Source of the DNA: Camellia lanceoleosa
Lineage: Eukaryota > Streptophyta > Magnoliopsida > Ericales > Theaceae
Direction of reading: 5' to 3'
Assembly (NCBI GenBank): GCA_025200525.1
Contig: CM045760.1
Location: forward strand, 46,147,932 to 46,211,931
Length of the DNA stretch: 64,000 nt
In this document: positions 1 to 28,426 of the stretch, one piece after another
How positions within the stretch are numbered: the stretch's first letter is position 1
Layout: the number at the start of each line of letters is the position of its first letter
Made by a program: the position numbers and the translations under genes
The notes under the pieces: generated by a model
Seen by the model: the letters and a program-made list of their open reading frames with translations, nothing else
What the model was told of the DNA's origin: nothing
Database searches by the model: none

Positions 1-1333
1 GATAGGTACAATGCATTACAATGCATGATGCTTAAGGAAAGCAATAAATGGACAAAGCGATGCTTTAGAAAGCACCTTATGAGGTGAGTGGCGGTGAACC
101 GCTCTTCTCCGACGGCGATCTCCCCTTGTGCTCTTCGAACACTTTACCTTCAACTCATAGTACAAAGGTTCTGAAATGCTGACAAGGGTTCTTCAGGTAG
201 AACACTTTGGACGCTACCTTTCTTCCTGATCATATTCACAACTTTCCCTATTCTCCAACGGGGTGACAGACTAGGTTGGTTCAGTATCCAGAATTGAGGT
301 GCATACACGCTATCTCAACCTATGGGGCTTCCATATAGATTTTAAGCCGAGAACACGCCCTTGGGTATTTAAACCAGACTTTAGTCCCGGAAATCCCGAA
401 CCTTTACGTTCTAGGCATCAGCCATTCGAACTCTAGTTTCCACCGTTGCAGTTGGTCTCCTAGGAACTCATTGCAACACAGCCAAGATGTCCCTGTCATG
501 AAATGGTCCTCGAGGAGAGCACTTCTAATTGCCATTTTGGCTTGAAGCAGACTTGATCTTGAGCTTGAGGTAGAGACACACTCATACTTCGGAGCATTGG
601 CAAGACTTGAAGAGGTACACACGAAATGTAGTCTCGGAACTTACCGAAGTTGAAACAAACTCAGATACCCGACATTTCCCTTCTTTTCTTTTGCTTTGTA
701 GTCTGGAACCCATATAGCTTCAAATAGGTCCTAGTTTTACTATTCTGACATGACCTGGGTTGAACCCTGCGGTTTTATGAAAGAACAAACTCTGTTTTGC
801 ACAAATGTGGAGAACGGCACGACACTTGGAGCACAAAATGATTTTATTTTTGAAATTAAGAGATGAGTTTTTGACCAGGTATTGAGCCTACGACTAAACA
901 CAGCAAAATGACTCAACATGGAAATAAAAGGCACACAACCTAGACACATCAAGTAACACTCGAGATGACTCAAAACAAGAATCGAAATAAAACAAAAAGA
1001 CACAACACTCAGATGTGCACAGGGAGCCTGTTTCACCGGGTATTGTTTCCCATCCTTTCTCACTTGTGATTCTCACATCACTTGGCACTCAATCTCTAGT
1101 TTTCTGAAAAAGCCCTTTTCTCACCTTTTTCTCTCAACGCACATCTCTCTATTCTTTAATCTCTCATTTTTTATCCCTCCCCTGGGTGGTTGATGGGTAG
1201 ACAAGAAGTTGCGGGCTCTTGTCCCTAGCATTCTGCTAGATCCTTTTTCTTCTGCGCACAGCTAGTGAGTTTTTCCCACAGAGGGGTTGCGCTACAACTG
1301 GGTGTGTAGCAAATCTGCAGCTAACATCGGTTG
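1..1333 (-). mobile_element. Element B, distal internal part (Ogre/Tat-like)
   Basis: No gene is present. Positions about 240-480 align by eye with 6310-6560 of element A (shared text around 'gggcttccatatagat' and 'ggtatttaaaccagac'). Positions about 660-1260 align with about 12180-12720 of element A. Orientation is the same as A. The homology picks up again on the far side of A at about 20440, so this is the severed other half of the element at 20239-29493. Its 3' LTR would lie to the left of the window. The 5.6 kb that in A lies between these two blocks, including the PMD gene and its repeats, is absent here. Confidence 0.75.
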
Positions 1334-1338
1334 ATGGT
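1334..1338. repeat. Target-site duplication of element A, left copy (ATGGT)
   Basis: ATGGT lies immediately left of the LTR start TGTAACG at 1339. The same 5-mer follows the LTR end GTCTACA at 20239. Five bases is the usual duplication length for Ty3/gypsy integrases. This shows that 1339-20238 is one insertion. Confidence 0.9.
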
Positions 1339-4050
1339 TGTAACGCGCCCGCGGGGGGACCTCTATGCTACAGTTCGGATTCCCTTTTGTGTCGTGGTTC
1401 TAAATCTGAACCAAAGAGGCCAAATCCGGCAAATCGTTTGAGAAAATAGATTTTTGAAAAAGTAGTGCCAAACATGGATCGCTTGCCGGACATGAGTCGC
1501 CACCTAAATATTTTAAAATGGAAAATTTAGGAAACCTCGACTCGGTCAAGGCCACATGTCCGCTATCACCAAAGTGGTCTTGGCTCGGGAGCTTGGGTAC
1601 GATCGGGAAGGTCTGCTATGAGCACCCCTTTCGCCGGTCCAAGACCGCCTCTACTAACCGTGATATCCGTTTTGAAAACTTTATGTTCTTATTCCGGTTA
1701 TTAACCTAGAATTACTATGTGATGCACAACACAAAAGTATAGACTAGATCGACTAACTTGGAAATAAACATTGCATATCCGCTTTGTCTCAAAACGTGTT
1801 AGATTTGTCGCCGCAAGTAGGCTAAAATACGGATTTCAATGAGTTGTTCCAACTCGTGCAATCCAACCTTCACCCACGTGCATTCAAACAGTAATATCAC
1901 CTAAGCACTTAGCCACATGGTAAGCATACTGTCATGGCAACATTCACACGCATGTGGTATGCTAAAGCATAAATACTTACATCGTACTCCGTGCCAAAAA
2001 CAAAAACCCGGTTAGCAAACATGCATGACCTAGTTCATGTTAAGTGGCTAATGCACCGTATACAGGGATGTAATCTAGAGTAGGCTCGGCTAACCCTAAA
2101 CATGACATGTGAAATGTGCGAATAGCATGTATTCAATTTGGAATTGAAAATTGCAATGCAGTTTGTATGATGTGCCGAGCCTGATGCATGTAAACAAATG
2201 CATGAATGCACGCATGCATTGCATAAGGTATGCGGAAATAGACGTGCCCTAATCTACCATTGAAAGCGGGTAAATAAAAGGGAGAAAGAAATGGGGGTTG
2301 GAAGACATACACCCACTCACACACACTTATTACAACTTTGCCCTCGCTCGGAGGGACCAAAAGAATAATACAAATTAATTAACTACGCAAGCTAATTAAT
2401 TATTACAAATTAACTAAATTAATTAAATAAATAAATAATCTAATTGAACAATAAATGCCTCGGGAAGAGGGCTCAAATGCGTCGTGCGCCCGGGACTCGC
2501 TCGGAATCGCACTGTCATGGAAGTGTGCCTCTGTTTTCCTTGCTACCCTCCTCTGAAGGCTGCCAAAGTCTCAGAAACACTTCCTTGCACTGAAATAATC
2601 ACCGTGGGTAGAACACCACCGGCCATAGGATGTGGCCACCGACACTGGTTGAAGCTATCGGCTTCCTATTTTCTTCCGGTCGGCACTAAACAAGGCTTGG
2701 CCGGCACAAAATTCTCAGAAACCCTGAACTCACAAAGCAGTAGAAGGCAACAACTTGCATGGCAATGTAATTCAAAGCATGTATGCACCAAACACACTCC
2801 TTATCATGTTGGTGACTCAAAGGAAGGTGTGCCTTGGTTCCTGACCACCAATCGCAAGATTTCCATGCATGATGGCCCAAGGACCAAGAATGCAACTTTG
2901 ATTTCAAATGCATGCAATGCAAACAAGCAAACAAGGGTGCTCAAACCTCTATCAAACTCACTTCAAGAGGCTTGGCATGCATGTCAATGAGATGAAGCTC
3001 TAAGCATGTCAACTAGGCATACAACATGGACAATGTGATGCACTTATACAAACATGCAAACAAGCATATAAGGCAAGCATGCAAACCAATGAAATGATGG
3101 ACTTAGACATGAATTAGGCAACTCAAAAAGGCCTAAAATCAGTAGTCAAAATACCTACAATTGGGGACTAAACACACACACACACACGTGTACATGTTAA
3201 GGTACCAAACCCAAGGCACAAACAAGCAATATTCAAGCACACTTAAAGAGGCCAAACATGGACTAATAGCATGCATTAAAAGCTCTGAAATTCATATTAA
3301 ACATGATGCCAAATCATGCAATGAAGCATGCCAAACAAAACATGCAAATGGTCTTAGGCTTAAGGCAAGCCAATAGGGGCATTGAACTACACCTATGCAA
3401 GGCAATTATGGCATGCACTTAACAACTCAAAACAGATTTTTAGCATGTCAAATTAGGCCCAAAGGACCACTTAGATGGCATCTAAGGGACATGGAATCTA
3501 AGGCATGCAATAAGGCCTAAACATGGAGCATATAACACAAGCTTAAGAAGTCACGAAGGAGCATGCAAGGTAAGCATACAAGCACACCAAATGGACTGAA
3601 ATAGCATGCTAGGTGATTCCAAACCATCAAAACAATGCAAACAAAGGCATGCTACACATCCAAACTCTTAAGGCCAACAAGCCAAATGCAAAGGGGCTAT
3701 ATTAAACATGCCAAGATTGACCAAAATACTTATGGACAGACCTAAAACATGGTAATATGAGCACAAAATCTTCACAAACACAAGTCTAAAACATGCTAGA
3801 AATGAAGGCATACCACCTAAGCATGTTAAGACATAAAGAGGCATTACAAGAGAACTATACTAAGCATGCATAGGAGACCAAAACCAACTTGAAAACATGT
3901 TATATCATGGCATAATAAGCATGAAAAACAACTCAAACATGTTCAATACATACTTGAGCATGGTGCTCTCTCAAGAGGTAAAACTTGCCCTTTTCAAGGA
4001 CATCAAGGAGAGGGGGCGGCCCTCCCCTTTCTAGGACTTTATGGCACCAT

Positions 4051-4088
4051 CTCCACCACTGAAATCCCTCAAGATTTCAGTGATGGAG
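4051..4088. other. Stem-loop in LTR A, copy 1
   Basis: CTCCACCACTGAAATC (4051-4066) pairs with GATTTCAGTGATGGAG (4073-4088) around a 6-base loop, with one mismatch. The 5' LTR carries the same structure at 19227-19264. It lies downstream of the LTR TATA motif, so it would be transcribed. Its function is unknown. Confidence 0.6.
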
Positions 4089-4593
4089 AGGCCCAAACAC
4101 ACAAGTCCCGGATCTCTCCAAAATAGCACAAAAAGGGACCCTTTTCAAGGTCTAAAGGGGGTCAAACCTCCCCAAACCACAAAACACTCTTAATGTACAA
4201 CCAAAAGGCTTAAAAAATAGAACTTTTATGTGCCAAACACTAAGCTCAAAAACTGTTATAAAGCAAGCAAAAGGAAGGTACAAGAATGGGATAAAAAGAG
4301 AGTTAGTGTCTTACCCTTGAAGCCTCTTCAACAAAGATGATGTGTTGGCTTCCTTGAGTACCAAACCAGCTCCAAAGCTTCAAAACAAACCTCTGGACCC
4401 TCAAGAACCAAAGGAAGGTGAAACACTAGGTGCTTGTGTGCAAAAGTGTGAACTAAAGCACCTAGTGTACTAAATAAGCAAAGAAAAGAGAGATAAAATA
4501 GATATATGATCTAACCTAAAACCAGAGCTTGGTTTCTCTCTAAAATGGCTGAAACCTCTCAAGAATTTCAACCTTGAGCCAAGAGAAGAGTCT

Positions 4594-4606
4594 TCTCTCT
4601 TATAGA
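4594..4606 (-). promoter_or_regulatory. Probable LTR TATA box, element A 3' LTR
   Basis: The minus strand reads TTCTATAAGAGAG here, about 445 bp in from the LTR 5' end, followed by a purine-rich stretch. TATA motifs occur in the first quarter of the other Ogre-type LTRs as well (28419, 55469, 60531), and the 5' LTR copy is at about 19776-19788. No experimental support. Confidence 0.45.
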
Positions 4607-5047
4607 ACTTGTAAGACTTACAAACTAAGCAACCAAGGGCTCATCCCTCCATACACGTGTATGGAGGGGAAACAAGAGCTAAACAACTGTCTAAAAATAT
4701 CTCAGAAAGCAGCTATAAAGTGATCGGTAGGGCAAAATGGTCATTTTGCCAAAAAGAGTGCCGACCGGCACAATATAGTGCCGGTGGCAACAACAGCCAG
4801 CCGGTGGCCTCTAGCCCCAGCCGGTGGTGTGTAGGGATGCCTCATAAGGCATTCCCTGCCCCTCAAAGGCAAAACACAAGTGTTTGGTGCAAAACCAGAC
4901 ACAAAACAGTTAAGTTCGGAGGTCCTGAGGCAAGGCGCGCGAGCCGAGAACTCCGGGAACTCCAAACAAACACAAACATGGATAATCACCGAGTGTTCGA
5001 GCGGTGACATCCAAGTCTTGAGGACGGTCAAAAATGGGGTGTCTACA

Positions 5048-5060: not shown

Positions 5061-7560
5061 GACAGAACTCGGAAGTCATAACAATGACGGGAGTGAATGT
5101 CAAAGCCCAGAGACGACCCATTTTTGACAAGGCCGAAGACTTGGACAAACATGCAAGACAAAACAAGGTATGCGCCCGAAGGCAGGGGCAAAATGCAACT
5201 GAAAATGCAAGAAGCCGGGCATAACTTATGATCATGCAAAGAAAACTGTAATGAAGCACACATGCAACAGTTATAAGCTAGCATACGCCGATCTACACTA
5301 CGATGCAGAAAGGATGTAAGAGAATTATGTAATTCTCAAAACGTCTCACGCGGAGGATACAATACCTGTGCGGCTCGCCTGGTTTCACCAGCGGTAAATG
5401 AACCGTACATATAATATCGTGCCTGCAAAGAAAGTAAACTTAACAGGTACAATATTGTCAGCCATCTGCATGGCAATGCGAAATGCAAAATGATATGCAA
5501 TATATACAAAATGATGTATGAATGCAAATGATAATGCAATGCAAACGAAACTATGCAAACTATATGCAAAGCAATTGAATCATGATTCAAACCGGAGCGG
5601 TTCGAATCCACACTAATGTCAGATAGATTGATGGAAGTAACAAGTCTGTCTACCATAGAAAAGGTGTCGAAGCCCTCAAGGCGCGAGCGCACACAGAACT
5701 ATGAGTAATGTAGACAGACACAAGAACAAGTATTGGGTGGATTGACATAAGTGGGGAAACGACCCGCTGAGGAAAGAATAATGATCCTAATGATGGATGC
5801 AACAATTACACTACAATGTAATAGAAATGGATATGGCACGCGGGCCAAACCGTATCTCGCCTAGGAAAGGCATGGACACATACAAGCCATGTCTAACACA
5901 GAAAAGGGTGCCGCAACCTCAAACCAACATACCAACGTGGAGTAGGCGCGATACACATGCAGAACTGTGCTTTAACGTGAAGAGTAAGGGCACATACCAG
6001 ACCAAGCTCAACAAGGAAAGGCGCAAGCCATAGATGGGAGATGGTGCAGTGGATGCATGCAACTACAATGCAATGGAAATGGATATTTACAGGAAATGCA
6101 TGACATATGCACTATACTATAATGGAATGCATGACATATGCATTTTTTGATTGATTTTTTTGAAATGCATGACATATGCGATATTTACAAATGATGCATG
6201 AAATGCATGGTTTTTTTTTTTTTTTGTGTGTTTTTTTTTTGAAATGCGCATGATGCATGACATATGCTGTATTTACAAATGATGCATGATAATGCACTAT
6301 GATGCAATGACTGCGATTGCAGTTTTCCCTATTCTCCCAACGGGGCGGTACACTAGGTTGGTTCAGTATCCAGAATTGAGGCGTAAACACGCCGCCTCAA
6401 CCTATGGGGCTTCCATATAGATTTCAAGCCAAGGGTACACCCCCTGGGTATTTAAACCAGACTTTAGTCTCGGAAATCTCGAACCTTTGCGTTCTAGGCA
6501 TAAGCCGTTCAAACTCTAATCTTCACCGTCCCCCTTTGGTCTCCTAGGAACTCACTGCAAACACAGACAGGTGGCTTTACCAGACCACCGAAAGTCGTTC
6601 GGGCACGACAAACACCGAAGGAATTGCATCTTCAGAGGATTTAAGGTCTCCTCGACCGTATGCAATGCATGACAATGCATGTTTTTTTTTGAAATGTGCG
6701 GCAACACGCGGCTTTACGAATGCATGACAATGCAAGAATTGAGATGCGGTGCACAAGTCAGTGTGATATGATGCATGCCGAATGCGATGAAGTGCATATC
6801 TTAACGCACCGAAGGTTTTGCACCTCCCGAGGATTTAAGGTCTCCTAGACCCCGGGGCGTGGTTTCAAAATACGCAGCTATTGAAATGATGATACCTGAC
6901 AATGCATGCGCCAAAGGTTTTGCACCTTCGAAGGATTTAAGGTCTCCTAGACCGCGCGTGTTTTAAGGTCTCGCCAGACCGGACGGGGCAACGATACAAA
7001 GCATAAATGCATGATGGTGCTTGTAATAAAGCACGTGACAATGCAGTCAAGCGGGTTTAAGGTCTCGCCAGACCGCGCGTGTTTTTGGTCCCGCCGGACC
7101 TTGTTTGTAAAATGAAATGCTCATGAGGCACGCATACCTCGTTTGGTGGAAAATGAAATGCAAAACGAGGCACACGTACCTCGAAATGTAATGAAAATGC
7201 GAAATGAGACACGCATACCTCATTTGATGGAACATGAAATGCAAAACGAGGCACACGTACCTCGAGATGGAAAATGAAATGCAAAATGAGGCACGCATAC
7301 CTCGTTTGATGGAAATGCGAAATGAAACACGTGAAGTAGTACACCTCACGTGGATCAAAAGGAAATGCAAAATGAAGCACGTGAAGTAGTACACCTCACG
7401 TGGATCAAAACGAAAGGCAAAAACGAGGCATACGTACCTCGAGATGCAATGAAATGCGAAATGAAACACATGAAGAAGTACACCTCACGTGAATCGAAAT
7501 GAGATGCAAGATGATCGAGAGTATGACACGCATGTCACATGACAATGCAAAACGTTGCAA
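5061..7560 (-). repeat. 3' internal region of element A with hairpin-rich tandem repeats
   Basis: There is no gene. 5061-6060 is unique-looking sequence with frequent 'atgcaa' words. 6060-6330 repeats 'aatgcatgacatatgc' several times. 6590-7100 repeats a palindromic phrase, 'ggtctcgccagacc' with variants, at least five times. 7100-7500 is an array of units in which a short inverted repeat (GAGGCACGCATACCTC, or a CACGTG-flanked version) alternates with 'aaatgcaaaatg'. Open frames on the minus strand at 7047-7469 are products of the repeat. Tandem repeats just upstream of the 3' LTR are a known hallmark of Ogre/Tat elements. Confidence 0.7.
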
Positions 7561-8336
7561 GTCGCAAGGGACGTGCAGGATGGCGCGCTACAATGCGCCG
7601 AACAATGTGATGGATGCGCGTGACGCACACGGGGCAACTTTTAAATCTCTGTAAACGATAAAAGGATACAATCTTCGCTTGAATTTGAGTGCCACGCACG
7701 GTAGACACAGTTCGAAGTCAAAACGGAGGCCGGTTGAGCATCGGAGATGCACTTTCTTGCACTTTCTTGAGCTATGAAGACCCGAAAACTCCTCATTTTG
7801 CCTAAAAAAGGCCTTGGGAACACCACCGGCTGGGTGGGGAGATCACCGGCTGCCACCGGCTGCCTAAACTTCTCCACCGGCACAATAATGTGCCGACCGG
7901 CACAAAATAGTGCCGACCGGCCAAAAATGGCTTATCGGGGGCAGTTTTGCCATTTCGACTTGGGTCTTTTAAAATAGGGTTTTAAACCCTATTTCCTTAC
8001 TCCTCCACCGCCGAAAAACTTCTCCCTCTCTCTCTAGAGTCTCTTTTCCTCCTCCTTCGCTCATTTCTTTGAGTTTTCGCGCCATTTTCGTCGTCCGATT
8101 CGCGAAGTTCACCGCGTTTCGGACATTTCCATCCGATTGAAATCTCGTTTCGGGGTCTCTTTTGCTATTTTCACCTTTTTGGGACTTGTTTCCCTTGATT
8201 TTCTCTTCATTTCCGTGCCTTTTCACTTTCCGGCTTTTCCGGCCATTTCCGACCCTCTCGGGGTTGACCGTCTCGGTTGACTCTTCGTATTCCGACCCGG
8301 TTTTCCTTTTCCGGTTATTTTCTCGCTACCACTACC
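7561..8336 (+). promoter_or_regulatory. Upstream region and probable 5' leader of the antisense PMD gene
   Basis: No coding region is seen. 7800-7930 carries a GC-rich cluster of 'accggctg' and 'gtgccgaccggcac' phrases like those in the LTRs. 7970-7992 has the palindromic 'agggttttaaaccct'. 8000-8330 is pyrimidine-rich with a CTCTCTCTCT run at 8023 and leads to the ATG at 8337 in context ACCATGG. A TATA box is not obvious. I infer a promoter and leader only from position. Confidence 0.35.
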
Positions 8337-8564
8337 ATGGCCGATGACGTTCCTCATGTCGGGACTCCCCCGGATCATGAGATGGATCCCGGGGTGGAGC
8401 TCCTCCCGCTGAGCGAGCGACCATTCGACCCGGCGACCTACCGCCCGGCCATTCACGTGCTTCCGCCAGACGGACTCCGCCACTTTCGCGGTTTTGACAG
8501 GGCTCTGGACCCGGAGCTTCTGCTACGCAAGTCGACCTCGCACCTCTCATTCGGCGCTTCCGAG
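8337..8564 (+). CDS. PMD gene exon 1
   Basis: Seventy-six codons from ATG (context ACCATGG) to donor GAG|GTAACC. The product is acidic and Pro-rich at first (MADDVPHVGTPPDHEMD), then has 'HFRGFDRALDPELL'. An upstream in-frame start exists at 8277, but 8337 has the better context. The exon ends in phase 0. Confidence 0.7.
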
Positions 8565-9241
8565 GTAACCCTTTTCTCTACTTTACTTTCTGCGATGTAG
8601 AATTGTAAACCGTAACCGCCATAGCCGACATAACGCTAATTGCTTAGCTTTAATACATCAGATCAGAAGTTGATCGAGACAACTTCACAACCGATATCTG
8701 CTTAGGACCGAGACATATGCACACACACCGCACCTCAATCACCCAAACACGACAATCAGATTTCATCGCAAACTCACCGATACCCGGATTTATTTGAATC
8801 AAAACCCGCACACATGCTAGATTTATCTTGAATCGAACCACTCGAACACGCCGACGATATATGTCAGTAGTTCACCGAGGCTTACTGTGACCCGTTATCT
8901 GCTTGAATCTGAAAAATGTGCACACATGCACCATATCTGTATGCTGTTCCTCACAAACATACTGACACATCACCGGTCGTAGTCCACCGTAGTACACTGA
9001 AACCTGACATTGGCTTGCATCTGAGAAACGTACACACGTGCACCATGCTTGCACTGCACCACTCAAAAACACACTGACGCATCACATATTGTAGTTTACT
9101 GTAGGCATACCGGCACCCGGTTTCTGTTTGAAAAGAAAAAAAAAACGTGCACACATGCTAGATTTGTATTGACTTTAACATGTTTCCTCAGAACTGTGTA
9201 TTTCATTTCATATTGCTTTGCAACCATTTGTTTGTAAACAG

Positions 9242-9898
9242 GGAGATTCCCATACCATCCGCGGGTATGGGAATGTTTCGGCTCGAGATTGGTACTCGGA
9301 GCTTCCCGAGGCAGTCCGACACATCGTGGACGAGGCGGGCTTCGGCTCTTTCTGCAGGGGTCTGACTCGGCTTACTGCCTGCAGGCCTCTCCTCGCGGCC
9401 TTGGCGGAGAGGTGGTGGGACACCACTGATTCATTCCACCTATCGGCGACCGGGGACATGACGATGACCCCTTATGACTTCTCGGTGCTCACCGGCATCG
9501 GGGTTGGGGGTGATCCGATCCCCTTCGACACCGATATGGACGAGTGGACTGCCGCTCAGATTCATTTACTCGGCGCGGCTCCGCCCCTTGCACGTCCAGG
9601 CTTTGTCCGCTATTCTTGGTTCGAGGTGCAGTTCAGGGTGCAGCCTCTTCTCGTTGACGCGGCTCCGATGACCGAGGTGGCCGTGGAGCAGTATGCACGC
9701 GGCTTTTTGATGTTCTTGTTGGGGACCACCCTATTCGCCGACCGGGCGAACACCGTGCCTCTTTGCCTACTCAAGACCGGTGGACGCCCGATGTCTTTGC
9801 GCTCGACTAGGTGGTGCGCCGCCACTCTCTATGGCTATATGAGCTCAGTCTCCCGTGGCAGCGGGCAGTTGCTTGGGGGCTACTGGCGAGCTTGGGAG
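9242..9898 (+). CDS. PMD gene exon 2 (domain core)
   Basis: 219 codons with no stop, between acceptor AACAG|GG and donor GAG|GTATG. It contains the most diagnostic PMD residues: the W-W-TTDSFHL segment, GDMTMTPYDFSVLTGI, and a later hydrophobic stretch (RGFLMFLLGTTLFADR) that matches the family's helical region. GC content is clearly above that of the flanking introns, as expected of coding DNA. Confidence 0.8.
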
Positions 9899-10113
9899 GT
9901 ATGTCTTCTTCTCTTATTTTTCATTTACATTTCAGACCAGACATACTCGCACACACCGTTGTTCCGCTTTTACGCTATCAGATAATCGTACACACGCACA
10001 CACATACCGCTTTATCTTGACCGCATAATCGCTCACATCAGTACACTCGCTCAATACACCGCGACAACACACGGCCCGCTTATTTCGCTTTATTCTCAGA
10101 TTCCGCTCGATAG

Positions 10114-10287
10114 ATGTTCGACATCTGCCTTGCGCCATGGGTCTATGCCTACTTTCGTGCTAGAGCGAAGACGAGACGGAGACTACTCGTTGTCCCTTTT
10201 CATGCCGCCACGACGGAGGTGTACCCGGAGGTCATGGAGACTTTCAGCTTCTTCCGCCGCTACTTTGACACCATCACTTCCGCCGAG
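10114..10287 (+). CDS. PMD gene exon 3
   Basis: Fifty-eight codons between acceptor GATAG|AT and donor GAG|GTATG, in phase with exons 2 and 4. It includes LAPWVYAYF and a basic run (RARAKTRRR). The in-frame TAG just upstream (10111-10113) lies in the intron and supports this acceptor. Confidence 0.65.
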
Positions 10288-10370
10288 GTATGTTTTACTT
10301 ACATTTCATTTAAGCTTTTCCCCTGTATATTTGCAATATCAGTAGGCAGTAAACTGTATTTCAATTTCAG

Positions 10371-10911
10371 ATCACCTGGCAGCCATGGGCTCCTCTGCCG
10401 GCGATAGATAGTTCGGGATAGGTTTGCCGGCGCGATCGAGACCTCGCGTTACCGGATTTTGCTGGAGGGCCCGGTCTGTCGGGCTTGGTACCTGGGTGAG
10501 CGCTTCTTGCGTCAGACCTCAGGGTTACCTGAGCAGATAGTCCCGGAGCACCCTCCTGAGCATATGAGGGACACCGAGCGTTTCACCGCCGAGCAGATGG
10601 CGGACTACACCATCACCGGGAGGCACGGCCAGGGCGAGAGCGACATCAGAGTACGTCCGGACCTTCATCATGCGCGGCCGAGTGGTGGTCGCCGAGCCAG
10701 AGAGACCATGGCGGCCTAGGGCAAGAGGTGGGAGGCGAGGCGGGACCGTCCTGAAGAGCTCGAGCTCGTGGCGAGAGGGTGCAGAGGGGACGAGGGACGG
10801 CCGCCCGCTCGCCTACTTTACTATCTTCCGAGGGTCGGATGGGGCAACCTATCGATCCCTTTGCTCCTCCCAGTGGTCATGAGTTTGTTGGTATCCTCGA
10901 CTTACCTCCAG
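10371..10911 (+). pseudogene. PMD gene exon 4, frame-disrupted
   Basis: Starts after TTTCAG and opens in phase 0 (ITWQPWAPLP), then hits TAG at 10419. The next frame shows family-like text (IVRDRFAGAIETSRYRILLE, then EGPVCRAWYLGERFLRQ) to about 10660. Beyond that, different frames look coding-like in turn up to donor CCAG|GTATG. At least two indels are needed. Length 541 bp leaves a net shift of one base. Confidence 0.6.
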
Positions 10912-10999
10912 GTATGTATTCGCATTTCACAAATCATTTTATTTCAGTTCAGTTCATTTGATATTCCACAGAATATTGATGCATCTAATACTTTTACAG

Positions 11000-11098
11000 G
11001 CTTCCTCTGAGTACACCCGGCAGTCATTGGAGCTGAATGCCTCCATGGCGGGGATGCTGCAGCGGACCTTCGAGTTCCTAGCCTTCTTTGGCCTTCCG
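11000..11098 (+). CDS. PMD gene exon 5
   Basis: Thirty-three codons (begins ASSEYTRQSLELNASM, ends FEFLAFFGLP) between TTACAG and CCG|GTATG. Phase 0 at both ends. Possibly a short helical segment. Confidence 0.55.
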
Positions 11099-11420
11099 GT
11101 ATGTTTTCTCCGACATAGTTCCAAACTATATACAAACTGCTTTGCATAATCTGATGCATAACACAACATCTGATAAACTGTTCACAGTACTTGGCACATT
11201 GTATTTATCCACGATTCGTGACCGATAAATCGCTCACGCATTCACACACTGCATTTCATACATCGTGCATTCTGATCCGATAAACTGCTCACGGCATTCA
11301 CACACTGTACTCATACATTGCATTCTGATCTGATAAACTGCTCACGTCATTCACACACTGTACTCTTCAGATGATAAATTGCTTTATGTATACTGATGCA
11401 TTTGCTTTTGTACTTTTCAG

Positions 11421-11696
11421 CCTCCCTTCCCGAGTCCTTCCGTAGGTGGCGGCACTCCATCTGGACCTCCCATTTCTACTCGGGATGGCAGGATATTCCC
11501 CCGCACCATAGGGGGGCGCGGCCATGTGGGAAGTAGCTCACGGGCTCCAGTTGCAGGGGATGGCGAGTCGGAGGCGGAGGCCTCTGAGGAGGAGGCCGGC
11601 GGCAACTCGGCTCCTGCCCGACAAATGACACTCGACGATGTTCTCGCTTCGCCTCAGAAGAGGGCGAGGACGGATCCCCTGGCGCGAGGCCATTGA
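11421..11696 (+). CDS. PMD gene exon 6 and stop
   Basis: Ninety-one codons and TGA after a TTTTCAG acceptor. The product is low complexity: a Pro/Ser/Gly-rich start, an acidic run (GESEAEASEEEAGG) and the basic patch SPQKRARTDP near the C-terminus. No indels are needed. Confidence 0.6.
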   Translation, partial: PPFPSPSVGGGTPSGPPISTRDGRIFPRTIGGRGHVGSSSRAPVAGDGESEAEASEEEAGGNSAPARQMTLDDVLASPQKRARTDPLARGH

Positions 11697-14600
11697 TGAT
11701 GATGATGACCCAGACTTTTGCTGTTTTTCTTTCATTTTCTTTTCTTGTACTTTTCTCTTTTTTGGTAGATAGAGTACTATGTACTGCCGCAGGCAGGTTT
11801 TTGCTTTTCTCAAACGCTGTATTTGGAAAAGATGGTATGAAATGAAACAAACTTTTGGTCTAAAAAAAAAGTGTTGCATTTGTATATTTCATATCCTGCA
11901 CTGCATTGCATCATATTACACCTCAAATGTAAACGATATTGATCTGTTGTCTGACAATTGAATACTTGCACTGTAATAATCGGATAACCAACCAACTAAA
12001 CAAAGAAAACAAATTTCATACAAACCACTGCTCAAAACTGGGTTCACAACCCATACTCTGCTAGGGACTAATCTGCTGGGGATTGATTTGCATACAGCCT
12101 ATAACACAGCATTTGGTTCATTCTGCACACAGCAAACCCTGAACAAATAGCCCCAATCTGACAAGACGGATCACAAAACTGATACGGTTGCAGTTGAAAC
12201 ACACTTGGAAGTCCCAAATTTTTCCCTTCCTTCTCTTACTTTGCACGGATGTAGAGAATGGCAAAGCATTCTGAGCACAAGCGATTACCTTTTGGAAGAA
12301 AACGGGTTTTCAACTGGGGTGTCGAGCCTACCACAGAACACGGCGAGACAGACTCAAACAAAGAAAGAAAAGGCACACGACCTAACACAACGAGACATAT
12401 TTGGAAAAGACTCAAAGCCAAAATTGAGACCAACAAATCAAAAGACACGATACACGGACGTGTTTAAAAGAAGAGACCTCAAATTTCGAGGAGCCAGTTC
12501 CTCCGGGTATACCTCACACCCTTTCTGATTTGTGATACTCGCATCGCTCGGCCCTCAGGCTTGGTTTTTCTCTCAAAAACCCTTTTCTCACTTTTCTCTC
12601 AACTTACTCCTCTCTATTCTTTATTCTCTCATTTTGCATCCCTCCCCAGGGTGAATGACAGATGACTAGGAAGTCGCGGGTTCACACCCAACGCTGTTAG
12701 CTCACGGCTATTCCTTCTGGTGGATAGAGTGCCCTGTTGGAAAGCATATTAACGGGGGGAAGATAGAGGACCCGACTCAATCGTGCCCTTAGTTCGTCAT
12801 TTCGACCATTTTTGTTTTCTTCCTAAAACAGTTTTGACCAAAATGAGAGTTGGATTAACACACTTATTCGATTTTTGATTTGAAAATCATGCGAATCAGG
12901 CTGTGAGCACTGAAAATTCTCCTTTTGGGGTCCAAACATGGTCCAATTTTGAAAACGAAACAGTTTTCGAGAAAATAAGTCAACCTCAGTAAAAATTTTC
13001 AAAAACTATTTTTGCAGACAATCAATGCTCAACGAGCGCGGAACTTACCCTCGAGATATGCAACCTCGGATCGGAGGCAATGGAAAATTGCCCCTGGCTT
13101 AAAGGGGGGAAGGCAACAGAAAGTTGCCCCTGGTTTGAACGGTAACTCAGGGCAACTTATGGCAATGGATGGCAACGGAAAGTTGCCCCTTGTTTGGATG
13201 ATGCCGCGCATGTTGTAAGCCGCCTTTTGTCGATGACGATCGGACCCTCGGATGCAGAGAAGTCGAAGATGGCTTGAATCAATATATGGACACAGTCACC
13301 TGGAAGGTGTTAGCGGTTTGGCTTCAAGATGAAGTTGGTCACGTAATTCCGGGTTGCTGCAATCAAGATATCGGATTCGGAGAAGGCAAAAGTGATCAAA
13401 ACCATGACATGGCCTGAGACGCTATGGAAGCGTTGGGGGCTGGACTTCAAGATGAAGTTGCCTACGTATCCCAAACATGGGAATCAAGCCTTACGTAGTT
13501 CCGGTTAAGGTACACTCGGGTATTTTAACCTTCACTATTTTTAGGCTCTAACTTTTGCCAAGGTGCCCAATGCGGGTTTTCGACCTTGCGAGCTATGTTT
13601 TTCTTCTTCTTCCTTTTTCTTTCCTCTTTTTTCTTCTTCTTTTTTTTTTTTGCATTTGTGTATCTTTGAATTTTTTTTCTCTTTTTTCTTTTTTTCATTC
13701 TTTTCTTTGCTCTAACTTTTGCCTGGGTCGCCCTTCCGGGTTTTCGGCCCAGCGAGCCTCTCAAAGGGTAAAAGTGTAGCTCGTCCATGCCAAATGGTTT
13801 TGAGATTGAAGCCTCTCTGTATCTAGGAGAACGACTATTGTGTTGATTTGCAGAAAGGTCCATCACGGCTACTTCTCGAGCTTTGCTTAGTGGGATCTGA
13901 TCTTCCTGATCGGACTCTGATGCCTCTTGCTCGAGGGCTGCTTCGAATTGGGCCACACAGGCGTCTCATGGCACTGGTCGTTTTGCACAGACTTTGGTTT
14001 GCAACAGATGAATCGAATCTCGAGACTGGGAGCAACCCTAGGCTGCACCATCTCAAAAGCGATTCCACACAGGTCTTCGCGAGACTTGCGCAAAATGTTT
14101 TGTTTTTGAAAGTTTTTAAGAAAGCGACAAATCGCTCATGTTGAAGATAGTGTGGAACCAGTCTGGATCAGGCCAGGGTCCTTCTCAGTACTCACACTGA
14201 CAAGCATAATTTCATTTATTAAGGGCTTAGCATGCCTCTCTTTCTCTCAAAATGGTCAAAATTTTGCGAAAACCCGAGAGATTCCTCCCTCTTTGTTTTT
14301 ATCACCGCAGTGTTTGAAAAGGGTTTTATGAAAAGCTTCGGTCATTGTGACAATGTTCAAAGCACAAGAGAGTAGGCGAAAAGCACTATCATTCCATTCA
14401 CATCTCTGGCGTGGTTGGTTCGAATAGTAACAAATACGGGACGTGATAGCCACAGCTGTTTCATTCAAATTTGTTGGCATAACTGGCTCTTCGGCAGAAA
14501 CAAACTTAAACAACAAAAGCAACTAATTGAAAGACAAAACGGTGTTTGAGGCAACAACCCCGAAATCACCTGGTATACTATACAAAAGGGACTGACTCAT

Positions 14601-14697: not shown

Positions 14698-15794
14698 TTA
14701 CAAAATTAGCATTGGCAGGTGCTCAAAAATGCGTGCCAAACGCCATATCCAAAAATGTACCAGATATTGCCCGCAGGCAGTTGAATCCCAATTACATACT
14801 CGCAGTATCGGTGTCCTCGGTATCTGTGTCCTCACAATCCAAGAACTCAGAGGACCGACGGCCGAGGTAGGCGGGAGGATGACCTTGTTATCAATCAAAT
14901 CCTGTACCTCATGACGGAGGCGGAAGCAATTATCAGTGGCATGGCCAGTCTGCTGATGGTACGCACAGTACTGAGTGGCATCATGGCCTGCTGGAAGGGG
15001 TTTGGGGAGCGGCCTAGGATCGAGGGGTGTAAGATGCCCCTTTTTGGCCAAAATCAGAAGTGCCCTAGACAAAGGCATGTAGAGAGGATGGAAGACCCTG
15101 CGCCCTCGGGGCAGGTACTTTGGAACCTGAGCACTCTTGCTAGATGAACTAGCGAATGGGTCAGCGGGTGCGGCTTTGGATTTCTGATTCTTTCCGGATG
15201 CAAGGCTGGGAGTGGGAAGAACCTTTTTGGCATGACGGGGCCTATCCCGATTCTCTGATTGACTGGAACTGCCCTCAGGCGGAGTAGGGAAAGCATCCTC
15301 CACAGCTTTTGTCGTAACTGCAGATATCTGTTGCTTGTTCATTCCCCCGGCTTTCAAAGCCTCTACTGCCCACAGCAGTTGTTCGATAGGGTCGGCGTCT
15401 GCTTTCATCTCACCTTTGTCTCCGGCCTCAGCCTGGTCTAGAACTTGGTTTGCTGCGTCGTTGCCACAGTTGGAGGCCATCTCCGGTTGGCTGAGTTCGA
15501 TCACAATTGGCCCCAAAGAGTGGGGGCTCTGGGTACAAAGCCTCATATATGATGCATTGGCGAAACAGACATCCCATAGGCGAGATCCGCTACGGACCTT
15601 TGAAGATCACCTATCATTCCCATTAGTTCAAAAGTAGTAGGCTCACGAGCCTGATATAGGTGAGGGGTCCAAATTGGGTGTGCGGCAGGCGACCTGGGCG
15701 GATGCGGCATGTCAACAGTAGCTTCATCTTGTGGGGTGGTTCCTTGACTCATTGCGGCCATCATGACCACAATTTCTTCTGAGTTTTGCGTCAT
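14698..15794 (-). pseudogene. gag: gag of element A, core deleted and frameshifted
   Basis: An ORF from ATG at 15794 (MTQNSEEIVVMMAAMSQG) runs to 15543. A second frame (15546-14698) follows. The C-terminal part carries the zinc-knuckle-like motif C-x2-H-x4-H-x4-C (CAYHQQTGHATDNC, about 14926-14967), followed by FRLRHEVQDLIDN, as in plant Ty3/gypsy gag proteins. Upstream, 'RVFHPLYMPLSRAL' matches 'RVFTLLHMPLSKAL' of element B. The capsid core present in B (RFDGSGDP... through the Trp/Arg-rich region, roughly 170 residues) is missing. The protein could not form a normal capsid, so A would rely on another element for particles and enzymes. Confidence 0.75.
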
Positions 15795-16504
15795 GTTCGG
15801 TCTTGTCTCAGCAAGGAGAAGACACTAGCTATTCTGACTCAACTCTCTGAATCTCTGAACTGAAACGGAAAACAAGCAGTATTTTAGCCCCAAACAGATC
15901 AAACACGGGTGTAGTCGAACAACTGCACTCTACTACTGAACACTGTTCCCCGAAGTCACTGTCCCAAATCTGAATCTGACACCCGCAGATATAACTGATT
16001 CACAACAACACTGATACTGGTGCCCTCAGGCCTGACACCCAAATTTTGCAAACTGATATGCGCATTCCCTGTAGAGATACACTCTAAAAGCACATAGCAT
16101 GTAAAAGAGAGCCAATACACCCCTGTGTTGGGGTAGGGTTTCCCTGTCCTATTTTGTCAGGAGCTAGGGTTTTACTACGCACGCAGCGGTTTCAAACAAC
16201 CTATAATCGGGTAAGCAACCTGTCCTAGTTTGGAATGGTCACTATGGATCCGAATATGCACTAGGTCGAATGGTCGAAAAGGGTGCCCCGGTAAAACCGG
16301 GGTTTGTGTTCCCATACTGGCAGAGCCCGCAACCGGTCAGCCTTATGGTCATGCCTTGACAAGACAAGCCTCCAGCAAACCGCTCAGGAATAGCAGATGG
16401 CCAACACGGTGTCCTAGGCGCACCAATGCACATGCAATGCAAAGAAACACATAAGTGAAATCAAAACAGGATATCACGAGTTCGAGTCAAGCTCTCTAAA
16501 GACT
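15795..16504 (-). mobile_element. 5' untranslated leader of element A
   Basis: Lies between the primer-binding site and gag. No gene. 16080-16470 is clearly related to 24360-24750 of element B ('ggggtagggtttccct', 'cggtgtcctaggcgcac'). Confidence 0.6.
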
Positions 16505-16522
16505 CCCAAATAGAAGTCGCCA
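16505..16522 (-). other. Primer-binding site of element A, degraded
   Basis: The minus strand reads TGGCGACTTCTATTTGGG, five bases downstream of the 5' LTR. It matches the better-preserved site in element B (TGGCGACTCTGCTTGGGA) with several changes. The TGGCGACTC start is the type reported as tRNA-Arg-complementary in Ogre relatives; that assignment is from memory. Confidence 0.55.
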
Positions 16523-16527
16523 GAATC

Positions 16528-19500
16528 TGAAGGGACCTCTATGCTACATTCGGACTCCTTTTGTGTCATGTTCTAAATCAACCAAAGAGTCCAAATCCGC
16601 AAATCGTTTGAGAAAACAGATTTTAAAAAAGTAGTGCCAAATATGGATCTGCTTTGCGACATGAGTCGCCACCTAAATATTTTAAAATGGGAAATTTAGG
16701 AAACCCCGACTCGGTCAAGGCCACATGTCCGCTATCACCAAAGTGGTCTTGGCTCGAGCTTGGGTACGATCGGAAGGTCACTATGAGCACCTTTCGCCCG
16801 TCCAAGACCGCCTCTACTAACCGTGATATCCGTTTTTGAAAACTTTATGCGTTCTTATTCTGGTTATTAACCTAGAATTACTATGTGATGCGCACAACAC
16901 AAAAGTATAGACTAGATCGCCTAACTTGGAAATAAACATTGCATATCCGTTTTGTCTCGAAAAACGTGTTAGATTTTGCTACTCGCAAGTAGGCTAAAAT
17001 ACGGATTTCAATGAGTTGTTCCAACTCAGGCAATCCAACCTTCACCCACAGGCATTCAAACAGTAATATCACCTAAGCACTTAGCCACATGGTAAGCATA
17101 CTGTCATGGCAACATTCACACGCATGTGGTATGCTAAAGCATAAATACTTACATCGTACTCCGTGCCAAAAACAAAAACCCGGTTAGCAAACATGCATGA
17201 CCTAGTTCATGTTAAGTGGCTAATGCACCGTATACAGGGATGTAATCTAGAGTAGGCTCGGCTAACCCTAAACATGACATGTGAAATGTGCGAATAGCAT
17301 GTATTCAATTTGGAATTGAAAATTGCAATGCAGTTTGTATGATGTGCCGAGCCTGATGCATGTAAACAAATGCATGAATGCACGCATGCATTGCATAGGG
17401 TATGCTGAAATAGACGTGCCCTAATCTATCATTGAAAGCGGGTAAATAAAAGGGAGAAAGAAATGGGGGTTGGAAGACATACACCCACTCACACACACTT
17501 ATTACAACTTTGCCCTCGCTCGGAGGGACCAAAAGAATAATACAAATTAATTAACTACGCAAGCTAATTAATTATTACAAATTAACTAAATTAATTAAAT
17601 AAATAAATAATCTAATTGAACAATAAATGCCTCGGGAAGAGGGCTCAAATGCGTCGTGCGCCCGGGACTCGCTCGGAATCGCACTGTCATGGAAGTGTGC
17701 CTCTGTTTTCCTTGCTACCCTCCTCTGAAGGCTGCCAAAGTCTCAGAAACACTTCCTTGGGCACTGGAAATAATCACCGGCTGGGGTAGAACACCACCGG
17801 CCAAAGGATGTGGCCACCGGCACTGAATGAAGCTATCGGCTTCCAATTTTCTGCCGGTCGGCACTAAACAGTGCCGGTCGGCACAAAATTCCTGTAAAAC
17901 CTGCAACTCACAGCAGCAGAAGGCAACAACTTGCATGGCAATGTAATTCAAAGCATGTATGCACCAAACACACTCCTTATCATGTTGGTGACTCAAAGGA
18001 AGGTGTGCCTTGGTTCCCGGACCACCAATCGCGCATTTCCATGCATGATGGCCCAAGGACCAAGAATGCAACTTTGATTTCAAATGCATGCAATGCAAAC
18101 AAGCAAACAAGGGTGCTCAAACCTCTATCAAACTCACTTCAAGAGGCTTGGCATGCATGTCAATGAGATGAAGCTCTAAGCATGTCAACTAGGCATACAA
18201 CATGGACAATGTGATGCACTTATGCAAACATGCAAACAAGCATATAAGGCAAGCATGCAAACCAATGAAATGATGGACTTAGACATGAATTAGGCAACTC
18301 AAAAAGGCCTAAAATCAGTAGTCAAAATACCTACAATTGGGGACTAAACACACACACACACACGTGCACATGTTAAGGTACCAAACCCAAGGCACAAACA
18401 AGCAATATTCAAGCACACTTAAAGAGGCCAAACATGGACTAATAGCATGCATTAAAAGCTCTGAAATTCATATTAAACATGATGCCAAATCAAGCAATGA
18501 AGCATGCCAAACAAAGCATGCAAATGGTCTTAGGCTTAAGGCAAGCCAATAGGGGCATTGAACTACACCTATGCAAGGCAATTATGGCATGCACTTAACA
18601 ACTCAAAACAGATTTTTAGCATGTCAAATTAGGCCCAAAGGACCACTTAGATGGCATCTAAGGGACATGGAATCTAAGGCATGCAATAAGGCCTAAACAT
18701 GGAGCATATAACACAAGCTTAAGAAGTCACGAAGGAGCATGCAAGGTAAGCATACAAGCACACCAAATGGACTGAAATAGCATGCTAGGTGATTCCAAAC
18801 CATCAAAACAATGCAAACAAAGGCATGCTACACATCCAAACTCTTAAGGCCAACAAGCCAAATGCAAAGGGGCTATATTAAACATGCCAAGATTGACCAA
18901 AATACTTATGGACAGACCTAAAACATGGTAATATGAGCACAAAATCTTCACAAACACAAGTCTAAAACATGCTAGAAATGAAGGCATACCACCTAAGCAT
19001 GTTAAGACATAAAGAGGCATTACAAGAGAACTATACTAAGCATGCATAGGAGACCAAAACCAACTTGAAAACATGTTATATCATGGCATAATAAGCATGA
19101 AAAACAACTCAAACATGTTCAATACATACTCGAGCATGGTGCTCTCTCAAGAGGTAAAACTTGCCCTTTTCAAGGACATCAAGGAGAGGGGGCGGCCCTC
19201 CCATTTCTAGGACTTTATGGCACCATCTCCACCACTGAAATCCCTCAAGATTTCAGTGATGGAGAGGCCCAAACACACAAGTCCCGGATCTCTCCAAAAT
19301 AGCACAAAAAGGGACCCTTTTCAAGGTCTAAAGGGGGTCAAACCTCCCCAAACCACAAAACACTCTTAATGTACAACCAAGAGGCTTAAAAAAAAGAACT
19401 TTTATGTGCCAAACACTAAGCTCAGAAACTGTTATAAAGCAAGCAAAAGGAAGGTACAAGAATGTGGTAAAAAGAGAGTTAGTGTCTTACCCTTGAAGCC

Positions 19501-20238
19501 TCTTCAACAAAGATGATGTGTTGGCTTCCTTGAGTACCAAACCAGCTCCAAAGCTTCAAAACAAACCTCTGGACCCTCAAGAACCAAAGGAAGGTGAAAC
19601 ACTAGGTGCTTGTGTGCAAAAGTGTGAACTAAAGCACCTAGTGTACTAAATAAGCAAGGAAAAGAGAGATAGAATAGATATATGATCTAACCTAAAACCA
19701 GAGCTTGGTTTCTCTCTAAAATGGCTAAAACCTCTCAAGAATTTCAACCTTGAGCCAAGAGAAGAGTCTTCTCTCTTATAGAACTTGTAAGACTTACAAG
19801 CTAAGCAACCAAGGGCTCATCCCTCCATACACGTGTATGGAGGGGAAACAAGAGCTAAACAGCTGTCTAAAAATATCTCGTAAGCAAAGAAGTGGTGGCA
19901 GGCAAAATGGTCATTTTGCCAAAAAGAGTGCCGACCGGCACAAAATAGTGTCGACCGGCACAATATAGTGCCGGTGGCAACAACAGCCAGCCGGTGGCCT
20001 CTAGCCCCAGCCGGTGGTGTGTAGGGATGCCTCATAAGGCATTCCCTGCCCCTCAAAGGCAAAACACAAGTGTTTGGTGCAAAACCAGACACAAAACAGT
20101 CAAGTTCGGAGGGCCTGAGGCAAGGCGCGCGAGCCGAGAACTCCGGGAACTCCAAACAAACACAAACATGGATAATCACCGAGTGTTCGAGCGGTGACAT
20201 CCAAGTCTTGAGGACGGTCAAAAATGGGGTGTCTACAA
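16528..20238 (-). repeat. 5' LTR of element A
   Basis: 3711 bp, nearly identical to 1339-5047. Minus-strand start TGTAGACACC at 20238. The far end reads ...CCCTTCA, where the 3' LTR ends CGCGTTACA, so about 13 bp at this edge are lost or changed. Differences are not uniform. Most of the LTR differs at well under a few percent of positions, but 16540-16860 has many single-base indels and 17755-17915 differs strongly from 2575-2745. TATA motif at about 19776-19788, stem-loop at 19227-19264. Confidence 0.9.
19227..19264. other. Stem-loop in LTR A, copy 2
   Basis: Same 16-bp stem and 6-base loop as at 4051-4088. Element B's LTR holds a related inverted repeat at about 27462-27483 (CCACTGGATTTCAGTGG), so the feature predates the split of the two elements. 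Confidence 0.55.
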
Positions 20239-20243
20239 TGGTG
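20239..20243. repeat. Target-site duplication of element A, right copy (ATGGT)
   Basis: ATGGT follows the LTR end GTCTACA and matches 1334-1338. Element B sequence continues immediately to the right. Confidence 0.9.
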
Positions 20244-22527: not shown

Positions 22528-23907
22528 TCAAGTGTCGATAGACTTTGCAGGACCTGGTGCAGCAATGACCCCATTGTCAAACAGATCTTGTACATCATGG
22601 CGCAAACGAAAGCAACTGTCGATGTCATGACCGGTTTGTTGATGGTAGGCACAGTATTTAGTCTGGTCATGCTTTGCAGGGATAGGATCAGGTAGGGGCC
22701 GTTGTTCCAACGGTTTCAAATGTCCTTTCCAGAGTAAAACCTTTAGAGCCTTTGACAAAGGCATATGAAGTAAGGTGAAAACCCTCTTGACTCGAGGTGG
22801 ATATTTGGCCGTCTGTGAGCTACTTCCAGACACACCGGTGAATGGGGTAGCTGTTTTTGATGCGGTGGTGGTGACCATGCCCACTTCAAAAGATCTCACA
22901 GCTGTATCACCATTGGTGGTCGCATTCTAACTGCGGGAAAACGCCCTCCTGGACTGTTCCTTCTCCTGGTCAATGAGGCCCTGCTTCATAGCGTCCTCAA
23001 TCTGTACTCCCATCTCATGTAAGTCTGAAAAGGTGGGGAAGGGGAGAACAATCATTTTCTGCATAAGCTTGGGTTGGAGATTGCGCACAATCATCCGAAT
23101 CTGATCTTTGTCAGTGGGCCTAGTGGTCATCATTGAGGCCTTGGCTCTCCACCGAGTTACGAAGTCAGAAAAACTCTCTTTAGGCTCCTGCCTAGTTGTC
23201 TCGAGATCACGGGTTGTGACCTCGATCTGTGTATTATAGGAGTATTGAGCGACAAAAGCCTCGGCCATCTCATCCCAATTCCTCTTAATATCGTCTTCCA
23301 ATTTTGCATACCAGATGGCCGCTACACCCGACAGGGTCCGGCCGAATAAAGAAAGCTTCTGTGGTCTGGTGAGGCCCATCGGCCGTAGTATATCTGAGAA
23401 CAACCGTAAGTGCACCATGGGATCCCCTGACCCGTCAAAGCGGTCAATATGTGGCATTTTAAAGCGGTCTGGCAGCGTCATGGCCACATTGGTATACCCA
23501 TCCTCAATGTCCGGGATGGACTTGATGCCCTGTGATTTCTTGAACAGCTTTTCAAGCTTGCTCACCTTCAATGCTATGGGGTCCACCTCGGACTCAAAGG
23601 GAGAATCCGGCAGGTTGGTGGGTGCTTTAGATAACTGCGGTAGGATCGGGGGCGGAGGTGGCCCTGTCGGAATGTCCGTACCCTCCTGGACATTTAGTGT
23701 TTCCCCGGGTGTCTGAACCCCTAGTGGGGGAGGAGCTTGATGTGAGGCTGATGCTCCAGCTTGCTGCTGTAGCCGGGTAATTAGCTCCGCTTGCTGGGTC
23801 ATAATTGTAGCCTGCTGTTTGGAGAATTCCGCTTGGCGGGCAGCGTTCTCCTGCATGAGCTTCATACTTTCTTGAAGCTGACGCATCATTTCTTCCATCC
23901 CTGCCAT
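22528..23907 (-). pseudogene. gag: gag of element B, one in-frame amber codon
   Basis: Start chosen at 23907 (MAGMEEMMRQLQ); an upstream in-frame ATG at 24099 gives a less gag-like N-terminus. The first ~40 residues are Gln/Met-rich and probably coiled coil. A Pro-rich linker follows, then the Ty3/gypsy gag core starting FDGSGDPMVHLRLFSDIL with W-Y-A-K-L and 'SFSDFVTRWRAKASMM'. TAG at 22927-22929 interrupts the frame. The same frame continues through RVFTLLHMPLSKAL to the knuckle CAYHQQTGHDIDSC and a stop at 22528. About 460 codons, normal for the family. The amber separates capsid from nucleocapsid, so it is either a disabling point mutation or a readthrough site; I favour mutation. Confidence 0.85.
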
Positions 23908-24783: not shown

Positions 24784-24801
24784 TCCCAAGCAGAGTCGCC
24801 A
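24784..24801 (-). other. Primer-binding site of element B
   Basis: The minus strand reads TGGCGACTCTGCTTGGGA, five bases after the LTR end. Position and composition are right for a tRNA 3'-end complement, probably tRNA-Arg by analogy with Ogre. Confidence 0.7.
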
Positions 24802-28418: not shown

Positions 28419-28426
28419 TTATATAG
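28419..28426 (-). promoter_or_regulatory. Probable LTR TATA box, element B
   Basis: Minus-strand CTATATAA with C/T-rich sequence around it, about 1.07 kb from the LTR 5' end. Equivalent motifs occur in LTRs A, D and E. Confidence 0.45.

Follow-up and report, generated by a model that had tools for sequence, protein, structure and literature searches.

An intron-bearing plant mobile domain gene carried antisense by a pol-less retrotransposon family in Camellia lanceoleosa

Introduction

How does a gene with introns persist in an element that multiplies through an RNA stage? Introns in retrotransposon cargo on the sense strand should not survive the first cycle. The question is raised by a 64,000-nucleotide stretch of Camellia lanceoleosa DNA (the window; C3:46147932-46211931 of the 3.0-Gb genome) in which a minus-strand long terminal repeat (LTR) retrotransposon, here called element A (20237 to 1339), carries a multi-exon gene of the plant mobile domain (PMD) family on the plus strand. 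An original prediction, made from the sequence alone, had described this gene as antisense, intron-bearing, and host-derived. It is considered probable that the PMD gene is of ancient origin and has been kept under selection as an antisense accessory gene, with introns that are saved because the element RNA reads them backwards; its transcription, its splicing, the action of its protein, and host silencing as the target of that action are what we infer. The pairing of PMD genes with Gypsy elements is already known, and the new part is the retention of host-homologous introns together with strong constraint in copies that lack pol. Publications cited by PMC number are used to the extent of the parts consulted.

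Antisense position of the PMD gene in a pol-less element family

The translation of exon 2 was compared with the Pfam PMD profile PF10536 and scored 55 bits (E 9.5e-15), above the curated cut-off of 34.9, and the exon thus belongs to the PMD family, in agreement with the reading made by eye. Since a gag-like open reading frame (ORF) lies on the minus strand, the PMD gene is antisense to element A, as had been claimed. Element A itself is an LTR retrotransposon, delimited by paired LTRs of 3.7 kb each (Kimura two-parameter distance, K2P, 0.0236 over 3669 aligned columns) and by an ATGGT target site duplication, and both of these features of the original prediction were recovered (Table 1). The element had also been called gag-only. 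This description stands in that a scan of 13 of the 21 minus-strand ORFs of at least 70 amino acids gave no pol domain, although short relics may remain, and element A is therefore classed as non-autonomous and pol-less by the absence of protease, reverse transcriptase (RT), RNase H (RH), and integrase (INT). It does not stand for gag, which is a remnant. The 302-amino-acid gag-like ORF gave no domain in a Pfam scan, its C-terminus resembles a zinc knuckle by eye only, and an intact gag protein in element A was accordingly rejected. One minus-strand ORF gave sub-threshold TMEM126-like (E 0.002) and DUF7082 (E 0.046) matches, which are taken as chance.

A genome search with exon 2 identified 40 places at 89-100% identity, the window included (40 of 6,176 first-look candidates were scored), and 30 of these, again with the window among them, were returned as loci. 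Larger pieces were fetched for four further copies, which like the others had been picked by their similarity to exon 2. Three of the four, cp13 (L047/L041/L044), cp15 (L048/L042/L045), and cp17 (L049/L043/L046), repeat the pol-less antisense order of element A, namely LTR, polypurine tract (PPT) side, repeats, antisense PMD gene, middle, gag remnant, and LTR. In these three and in the window, the PMD gene has the layout termed aORF-3R, on the opposite strand between gag-pol and the 3′ LTR. The exceptions to the common order are the outer part of the 3′ LTR of cp13 and the stretch adjoining the 5′ LTR of cp17, neither of which matches element A. The LTR pairs differ by a K2P of 0.027 in cp13 (2772 columns), 0.026 in cp15 (3520 columns), and 0.023 in cp17 (3423 columns); TGTAG is found on both flanks of cp17, and the flank duplications of cp13 and cp15 are not clear. 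In the fourth copy (L040, 1-10000), a 3.0-kb PMD fragment (A 7629-10623) lies between the outer edges of two LTRs of the same orientation. This copy was considered as a PMD-only mini-element, a reading that was dropped since both LTRs turn their outer edges to the fragment, which makes nested insertions likelier. The PMD gene is multi-copy within its own element family, and a one-off insertion, named in the original prediction as the contrary case, is at odds with the 40 close places and with the recurrence of the same element around three of the four copies fetched.

All three introns examined among the copies are kept, intron 1 in 30/30, intron 2 in 30/30, and intron 3 in 29/29 loci (window included), which supports the earlier proposal that antisense introns survive the RNA stage. 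The gaps between exons vary little, at 566-800 bases from exon 1 to exon 2 (30/30 loci), 191-253 bases from exon 2 to exon 3 (30/30), and 73-87 bases from exon 3 to exon 4 (29/29). Where the exon edge was mappable, GT donors were present in 28/28 copies for intron 1, 29/29 for intron 2, and 22/22 for intron 3, the window included; AG acceptors were present in 29/30 for intron 1 and 22/25 for intron 3. The predicted model of six exons with GT-AG introns is supported at introns 1-3 by the donors kept among copies, and relatives align across exons 1, 2, 3, 4, and 5 of the window gene. The model needs correction in the window copy, where the CAG that precedes TTGTGGGTCTATGCC in relatives, as their exon-3 acceptor, is missing and exon 4 has no single open frame but changes frame. 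A stretch of exon 2 also reads otherwise than in relatives, and from these three defects it follows that the window copy has decayed. A search of PDB for relatives of the PMD protein P0005 gave none at E 1.

Purifying selection on the PMD gene

Selection was estimated by the pairwise Nei-Gojobori method, in which the pairs are not independent. The median dN/dS was 0.096 for exon 2 (mean dN 0.028, dS 0.258; 30 copies, 406/435 pairs usable) and 0.107 for exon 1 (dN 0.042, dS 0.342; 30 copies, 378 pairs), and the intact copies of each exon (15 and 22), read in shifted frames as a control, gave 1.6-2.6. Pooled pN/pS was 0.121, with a leave-one-copy-out jackknife of 0.116-0.125, and the uncorrected differences in exon 2 were 0.028 at second codon positions and 0.173 at 4-fold sites. 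Decay of methylated cytosines may raise dS, but the comparison with introns rests on no dS, and introns diverge more than nonsynonymous sites among the PMD copies, with a K2P of 0.170 for intron 1 (21 copies), 0.382 for intron 2 (12 copies), and 0.159 for intron 3 (28 copies). Judged by these substitution patterns, exons 1 and 2 of the element PMD gene are under strong purifying selection, which argues that the PMD protein matters to the element lineage. For the gag remnant, the median dN/dS was ~0.2 on only 6 pairs. Since LTR pairs diverge by only 0.023-0.027, most of the divergence among PMD copies predates insertion. Among the 325/435 pairs with enough sites, dN followed 0.016 + 0.043 dS (r 0.37), the relation expected where strong constraint before insertion is followed by a minor neutral contribution after it.

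It could be argued that the antisense transcript matters and not the protein, with double-stranded RNA (dsRNA) formed with the element RNA giving rise to phased small interfering RNAs (siRNAs) and the PMD frame surviving as a relic. There is precedent in tea, in which 175 PHAS loci lie at PMD genes (totals are 476 21-nt and 43 24-nt PHAS loci) and PMD-derived phasiRNAs target PMD transcripts (PMC10673657), and antisense aORFs have been proposed as a source of dsRNA (PMC7264820). This explanation is nonetheless improbable, as a non-coding role predicts neither a dN/dS near 0.1 nor a dN in exon 2 that is roughly one-sixth of the divergence seen in introns 1 and 3.

The low dN/dS might also stem from host-level selection on domesticated copies or from gene conversion by a host gene, and many such Camellia copies bear the name MAIN-LIKE or MAINTENANCE OF MERISTEMS in public annotation. 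However, three of the four further copies reside in LTR elements with recent LTR divergence, the host MAIN-LIKE 2 is very distant, and the introns diverge freely, whereas conversion would erase intron divergence too. An origin of the constraint in the host is therefore very unlikely.

A third explanation places the selection in autonomous, pol-bearing elements with the same PMD gene, the pol-less copies being recent and short-lived heirs. Individual copies have indeed decayed with different lesions, as each of three other copies translated over the exon 3-4 region has lesions of its own, and non-autonomous elements need a partner. Such partners may exist, because an exact search of the genome with the 27-base LTR/PPT junction gave 9,066 matches (none with the reversed control), a count for the wider group as a whole, which is therefore very large. 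In addition, PMD has been described in Ogre elements, a lineage that the parts of the literature consulted define mainly by RT, RH, and INT. Against this, the four structurally verified pol-less copies (window, cp13, cp15, cp17) share the same gag-to-PPT layout at a dS of 0.17-0.34, and their 6 pairs give an omega of 0.04-0.107. The shared layout, this dS, and the low omega argue that the gene was selected after a pol-less ancestor had arisen, barring independent losses of pol at one and the same site or a deletion that recombination passed between copies. Selection confined to autonomous carriers is thus possible but doubtful, and selection on the PMD gene within the pol-less family is preferred.

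Shared introns and the ancestry of the element gene

Three loci of MAIN-LIKE 2 type host genes were looked at (L006-L008). A model built from the exons of L006 matched at 77-99% identity over 98-100% of its length in the 120 of 433 proteins listed, which come from Camellia, Vitis, Quercus, Theobroma, and many more plants; the named matches among those listed are mostly 'MAIN-LIKE 2', with others called 'phosphatase 7 long form', 'Aminotransferase-like', or hypothetical. When 7 element-type and 6 MAIN-LIKE 2 type proteins are aligned, the two types have intron 2 in the same place, before column 306, and likewise intron 3, before column 363. Intron 1 falls at column 76 in element-type and column 78 in MAIN-LIKE 2 genes, within a gapped stretch. 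All three introns are of phase 0 in both types. Though the host genes (MAIN/MAIL, PMD-C) share the PMD domain with the element gene, their protein sequence is distant from it, and it is by position and phase that introns 2 and 3 of the element gene are judged homologous with those of MAIN-LIKE 2. The shared positions suggest a single intron-bearing ancestor for the element and host genes. At five other host PMD loci (L001-L005), the PMD is without intron, over the full profile in three and to about position 295 in two.

A tree of 32 rows set 20 element-type rows (6 copies from the element A family and 14 database proteins grouped by similarity) on one side of a branch with support 100/99, apart from 7 MAIN-LIKE 2 type rows (88/96) and 5 PMD-B-like rows (100/100), in a sampling without a named PMD-A reference. 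The branch to the element clade measures 1.54 changes per column, and the MAIN-LIKE 2 rows differ little among themselves. The PMD-B and PMD-C labels of the host rows are our assumption, after Ikeda 2017 and general background on the family. Taken together, the shared introns and the deep split between element and host genes make the introns older than any recent capture. The term host-derived in the original prediction, understood as a recent event, is not supported, given this long branch. If one element had recently taken up a host PMD gene, in a one-off transduction, this would account for introns that resemble those of a host gene and share positions with MAIN-LIKE 2. It would not account for the many copies, of which three of the four fetched are in the same context, nor for the deep split of the element clade from host genes, and PMD-A clades are found exclusively on Gypsy elements in the parts consulted of Ikeda 2017 (PMC5418596). 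On copy number, layout, and tree, recent capture was rejected as scarcely credible.

A bolder scenario can be put forward only tentatively. The PMD gene may already have been an antisense, unspliced passenger when the MAIN-LIKE 2 genes of the listed eudicots had yet to diverge, in which case the introns of host MAIN/MAIL genes and those of the element gene would be the same introns, and the PMD genes with which the host silences transposons could have been domesticated, introns included, from an antisense retrotransposon gene that elements keep under selection, even without pol, to counter silencing. Ikeda 2017 leans to domestication from element to host and calls the ancestry 'fully open' (PMC5418596).

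Predicted transcription and proposed mechanism

In the proposed mechanism, the PMD gene would serve as an accessory gene of its own element family, placed in antisense orientation on the 3′ LTR side of the gag remnant, in a non-autonomous and putatively Tat/Ogre-like carrier that lacks pol. Transcription of the opposite strand would start inside the element, at an internal antisense promoter such as that described for Grande gene23 (PMC7264820), and the transcript would be spliced to form the mRNA for the PMD protein. The genomic RNA of the element, in turn, would be the reverse complement of the PMD gene. Splice signals would go unrecognised in this RNA, and reverse transcription would therefore copy the introns intact. 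The PMD protein would be kept by selection at the level of the element and would probably act in the nucleus on the MAIN/MAIL-PP7L silencing system of the host, as a mimic, a competitor, or a chromatin co-factor. In Arabidopsis, transposons are silenced by the PMD proteins MAIN and MAIL1, which also interact with PP7L (PMC5418596, PMC7156037), and a retrotransposon PMD protein could compete with this system or redirect it. Escape from silencing has been speculated similarly for MULE-borne PMDs (PMC5418596). As to splicing, two of 15 short-contig homologues have joined exons, exon 1 to exon 2 in P0026 and exon 2 to exon 3 in P0109, as spliced transcripts would read.

Several observations weigh against an ancient, selected, and spliced gene. 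Only these two of the 15 contigs are joined, whereas eight enter intron 2 and five are uninformative, and the joined contigs could be intron-less DNA. The window PMD copy is itself broken, and of the 30 copies, 15 have an intact exon 2, with 95% of codons in frame and without a stop, and 22 an intact exon 1. By a crude test, the exon-3 acceptor, which is the AG of intron 2, was found in 16/29 copies. Constraint is also lower in exon 3 (dN/dS 0.30) and in the second part of exon 4 (0.43), and the copies were chosen by exon-2 similarity and compared in pairs that are not independent. Lastly, element B, the older minus-strand relative into which element A is inserted, is without the PMD block, as in B only ~310 unmatched bases stand in place of A 6569-12240. 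The gene is therefore not universal in the wider group.

Relation to known systems

Ogre/Gypsy elements bearing a PMD gene were reportedly described by Steinbauerova in 2011, as cited by others. Such elements are, like element A, large LTR elements of the Ty3/gypsy type with PF10536 in an extra gene. PMD was found on 57% of Ogre elements (Neumann 2019, PMC6317226), and it is the commonest extra domain in LTR elements of 121 angiosperm genomes, occurring in 10 species, or 40 unfiltered (Alvarado-Marchena 2022, PMC9289625). The extra ORFs of Neumann 2019, in the parts consulted, are single ORFs of at least 250 codons extracted by getorf, with spliced genes not modelled, whereas the gene of element A is multi-exon. 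Introns are likewise unmentioned in the main text of Ikeda 2017, whereas the PMD gene of element A bears them. More generally, the consulted parts of published accounts of PMD-bearing Gypsy elements do not describe cargo introns, intron homology with MAIN/MAIL, or selection in pol-less copies. A literature search, with most subscription papers beyond reach, found no report of an intron-bearing Gypsy PMD cargo, of introns shared with MAIN/MAIL, or of selection in pol-less elements. The tea PHAS loci at PMD genes may be cargo of such elements (PMC10673657).

Antisense accessory ORFs are known in plant LTR elements (PMC7264820, PMC11963269). They resemble the PMD gene in position and antisense orientation, a nuclear role is suspected for them, and some of their Retand carriers are non-autonomous like element A (PMC11963269), but they encode a protein domain other than PMD. 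Introns are unmentioned in the consulted parts of PMC11963269, while those of PMC7264820 only call for a look at antisense and spliced transcripts. A further parallel is offered by deltaretroviruses, in which HTLV-1 hbz and HTLV-2 aph-2 are spliced antisense genes of a reverse-transcribing element (PMC10186651), as is predicted for the PMD gene here. Their protein is unrelated, and the PMD gene differs in having several introns, two of them at host-gene positions.

Features of the window and neighbouring elements

The features of element A are given in Table 1. At the U5 ends of its LTRs (1339-1360 vs 16527-16540), a short insertion or deletion separates the two copies. A PBS-like TGGCGAC was seen in the window and in cp13, and none was seen in cp15 and cp17. 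Assignment to the Tat/Ogre lineage relies on RT/INT phylogeny and a second RNase H domain, and also on very large LTRs and a primer binding site for tRNA-Arg. The primer binding site of element A may be that of tRNA-Arg.

Table 1. Coordinates of element A and its PMD gene in the window
Feature	Position	Strand	Basis
Target site duplication ATGGT, left	1334..1338	.	By inspection
3′ LTR of element A	1339..5047	-	96.6% identity to right LTR; border by inspection
Repeat block, PMD gene to PPT side	7106..7514	.	Sequence comparison
PMD exon 1	8337..8564	+	Open, ATG start, donor GTAACC
PMD exon 2, domain core	9242..9898	+	Pfam PF10536, 55 bits
PMD exon 3 body	10138..10287	+	Alignment to relatives, whose CAG acceptor is missing here
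PMD exon 4	10371..10911	+	Alignment to relatives; frames broken in window copy
PMD exon 5	11000..11098	+	95% over 20 amino acids to P0006
PMD exon 6 with stop	11421..11696	+	Reading of sequence
gag-like ORF, C-terminal remnant, no Pfam domain	14701..15606	-	Zinc-knuckle-like motif by eye
Primer binding site (PBS) region	16490..16526	-	Minus strand TGGCGACTTCTATTTGGGA...
5′ LTR of element A	~16527..20237	-	First bases inferred from edge TG...CA
Target site duplication ATGGT, right	20238..20242	.	By inspection

Element B is represented by window 1-1333, by the sequence from 20243 (20243-29493), and by the upstream piece L009 1-4517. Its LTRs, which are 94-96% similar, lie at ~24809-29493 and within 9.5 kb upstream of the window, and it retains an ORF with a Retrotrans_gag domain (22930-24102). 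In a tblastn search with 120 PMD homologues, matches clustered at 8-11 kb of the window and none fell in the upstream piece; four isolated matches fell in the bins at 0, 6, and 7 kb. Within element B, a full-length LTR in the opposite orientation (L009 5687-9363), 82% similar to that of element A, is possibly a solo LTR. A stretch on the opposite strand at 57781-58889 of the window is 74-81% similar to the LTRs of A and B and may be a further related element or fragment. Elsewhere, an open stretch at 40106-40765 on the plus strand looks by eye like a piece of a plant UDP-glycosyltransferase.

Implications

The introns shared with MAIN-LIKE 2 bear on whether the PMDs of Gypsy elements came from host genes or the reverse, and comparisons of PMD-A, B, and C genes across angiosperms can now draw on intron positions as characters. 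The constraint on an accessory gene in pol-less copies raises the matter of why a coding gene should be kept by a parasite of a parasite, and it implies action in cis or for the parasite's own lineage. Element-borne PMD genes may also explain many of the tea phasiRNA loci at PMD genes (PMC10673657). A conserved multi-intron gene that persists through many cycles because of its antisense orientation shows one way for reverse-transcribing elements to carry ordinary eukaryotic genes.

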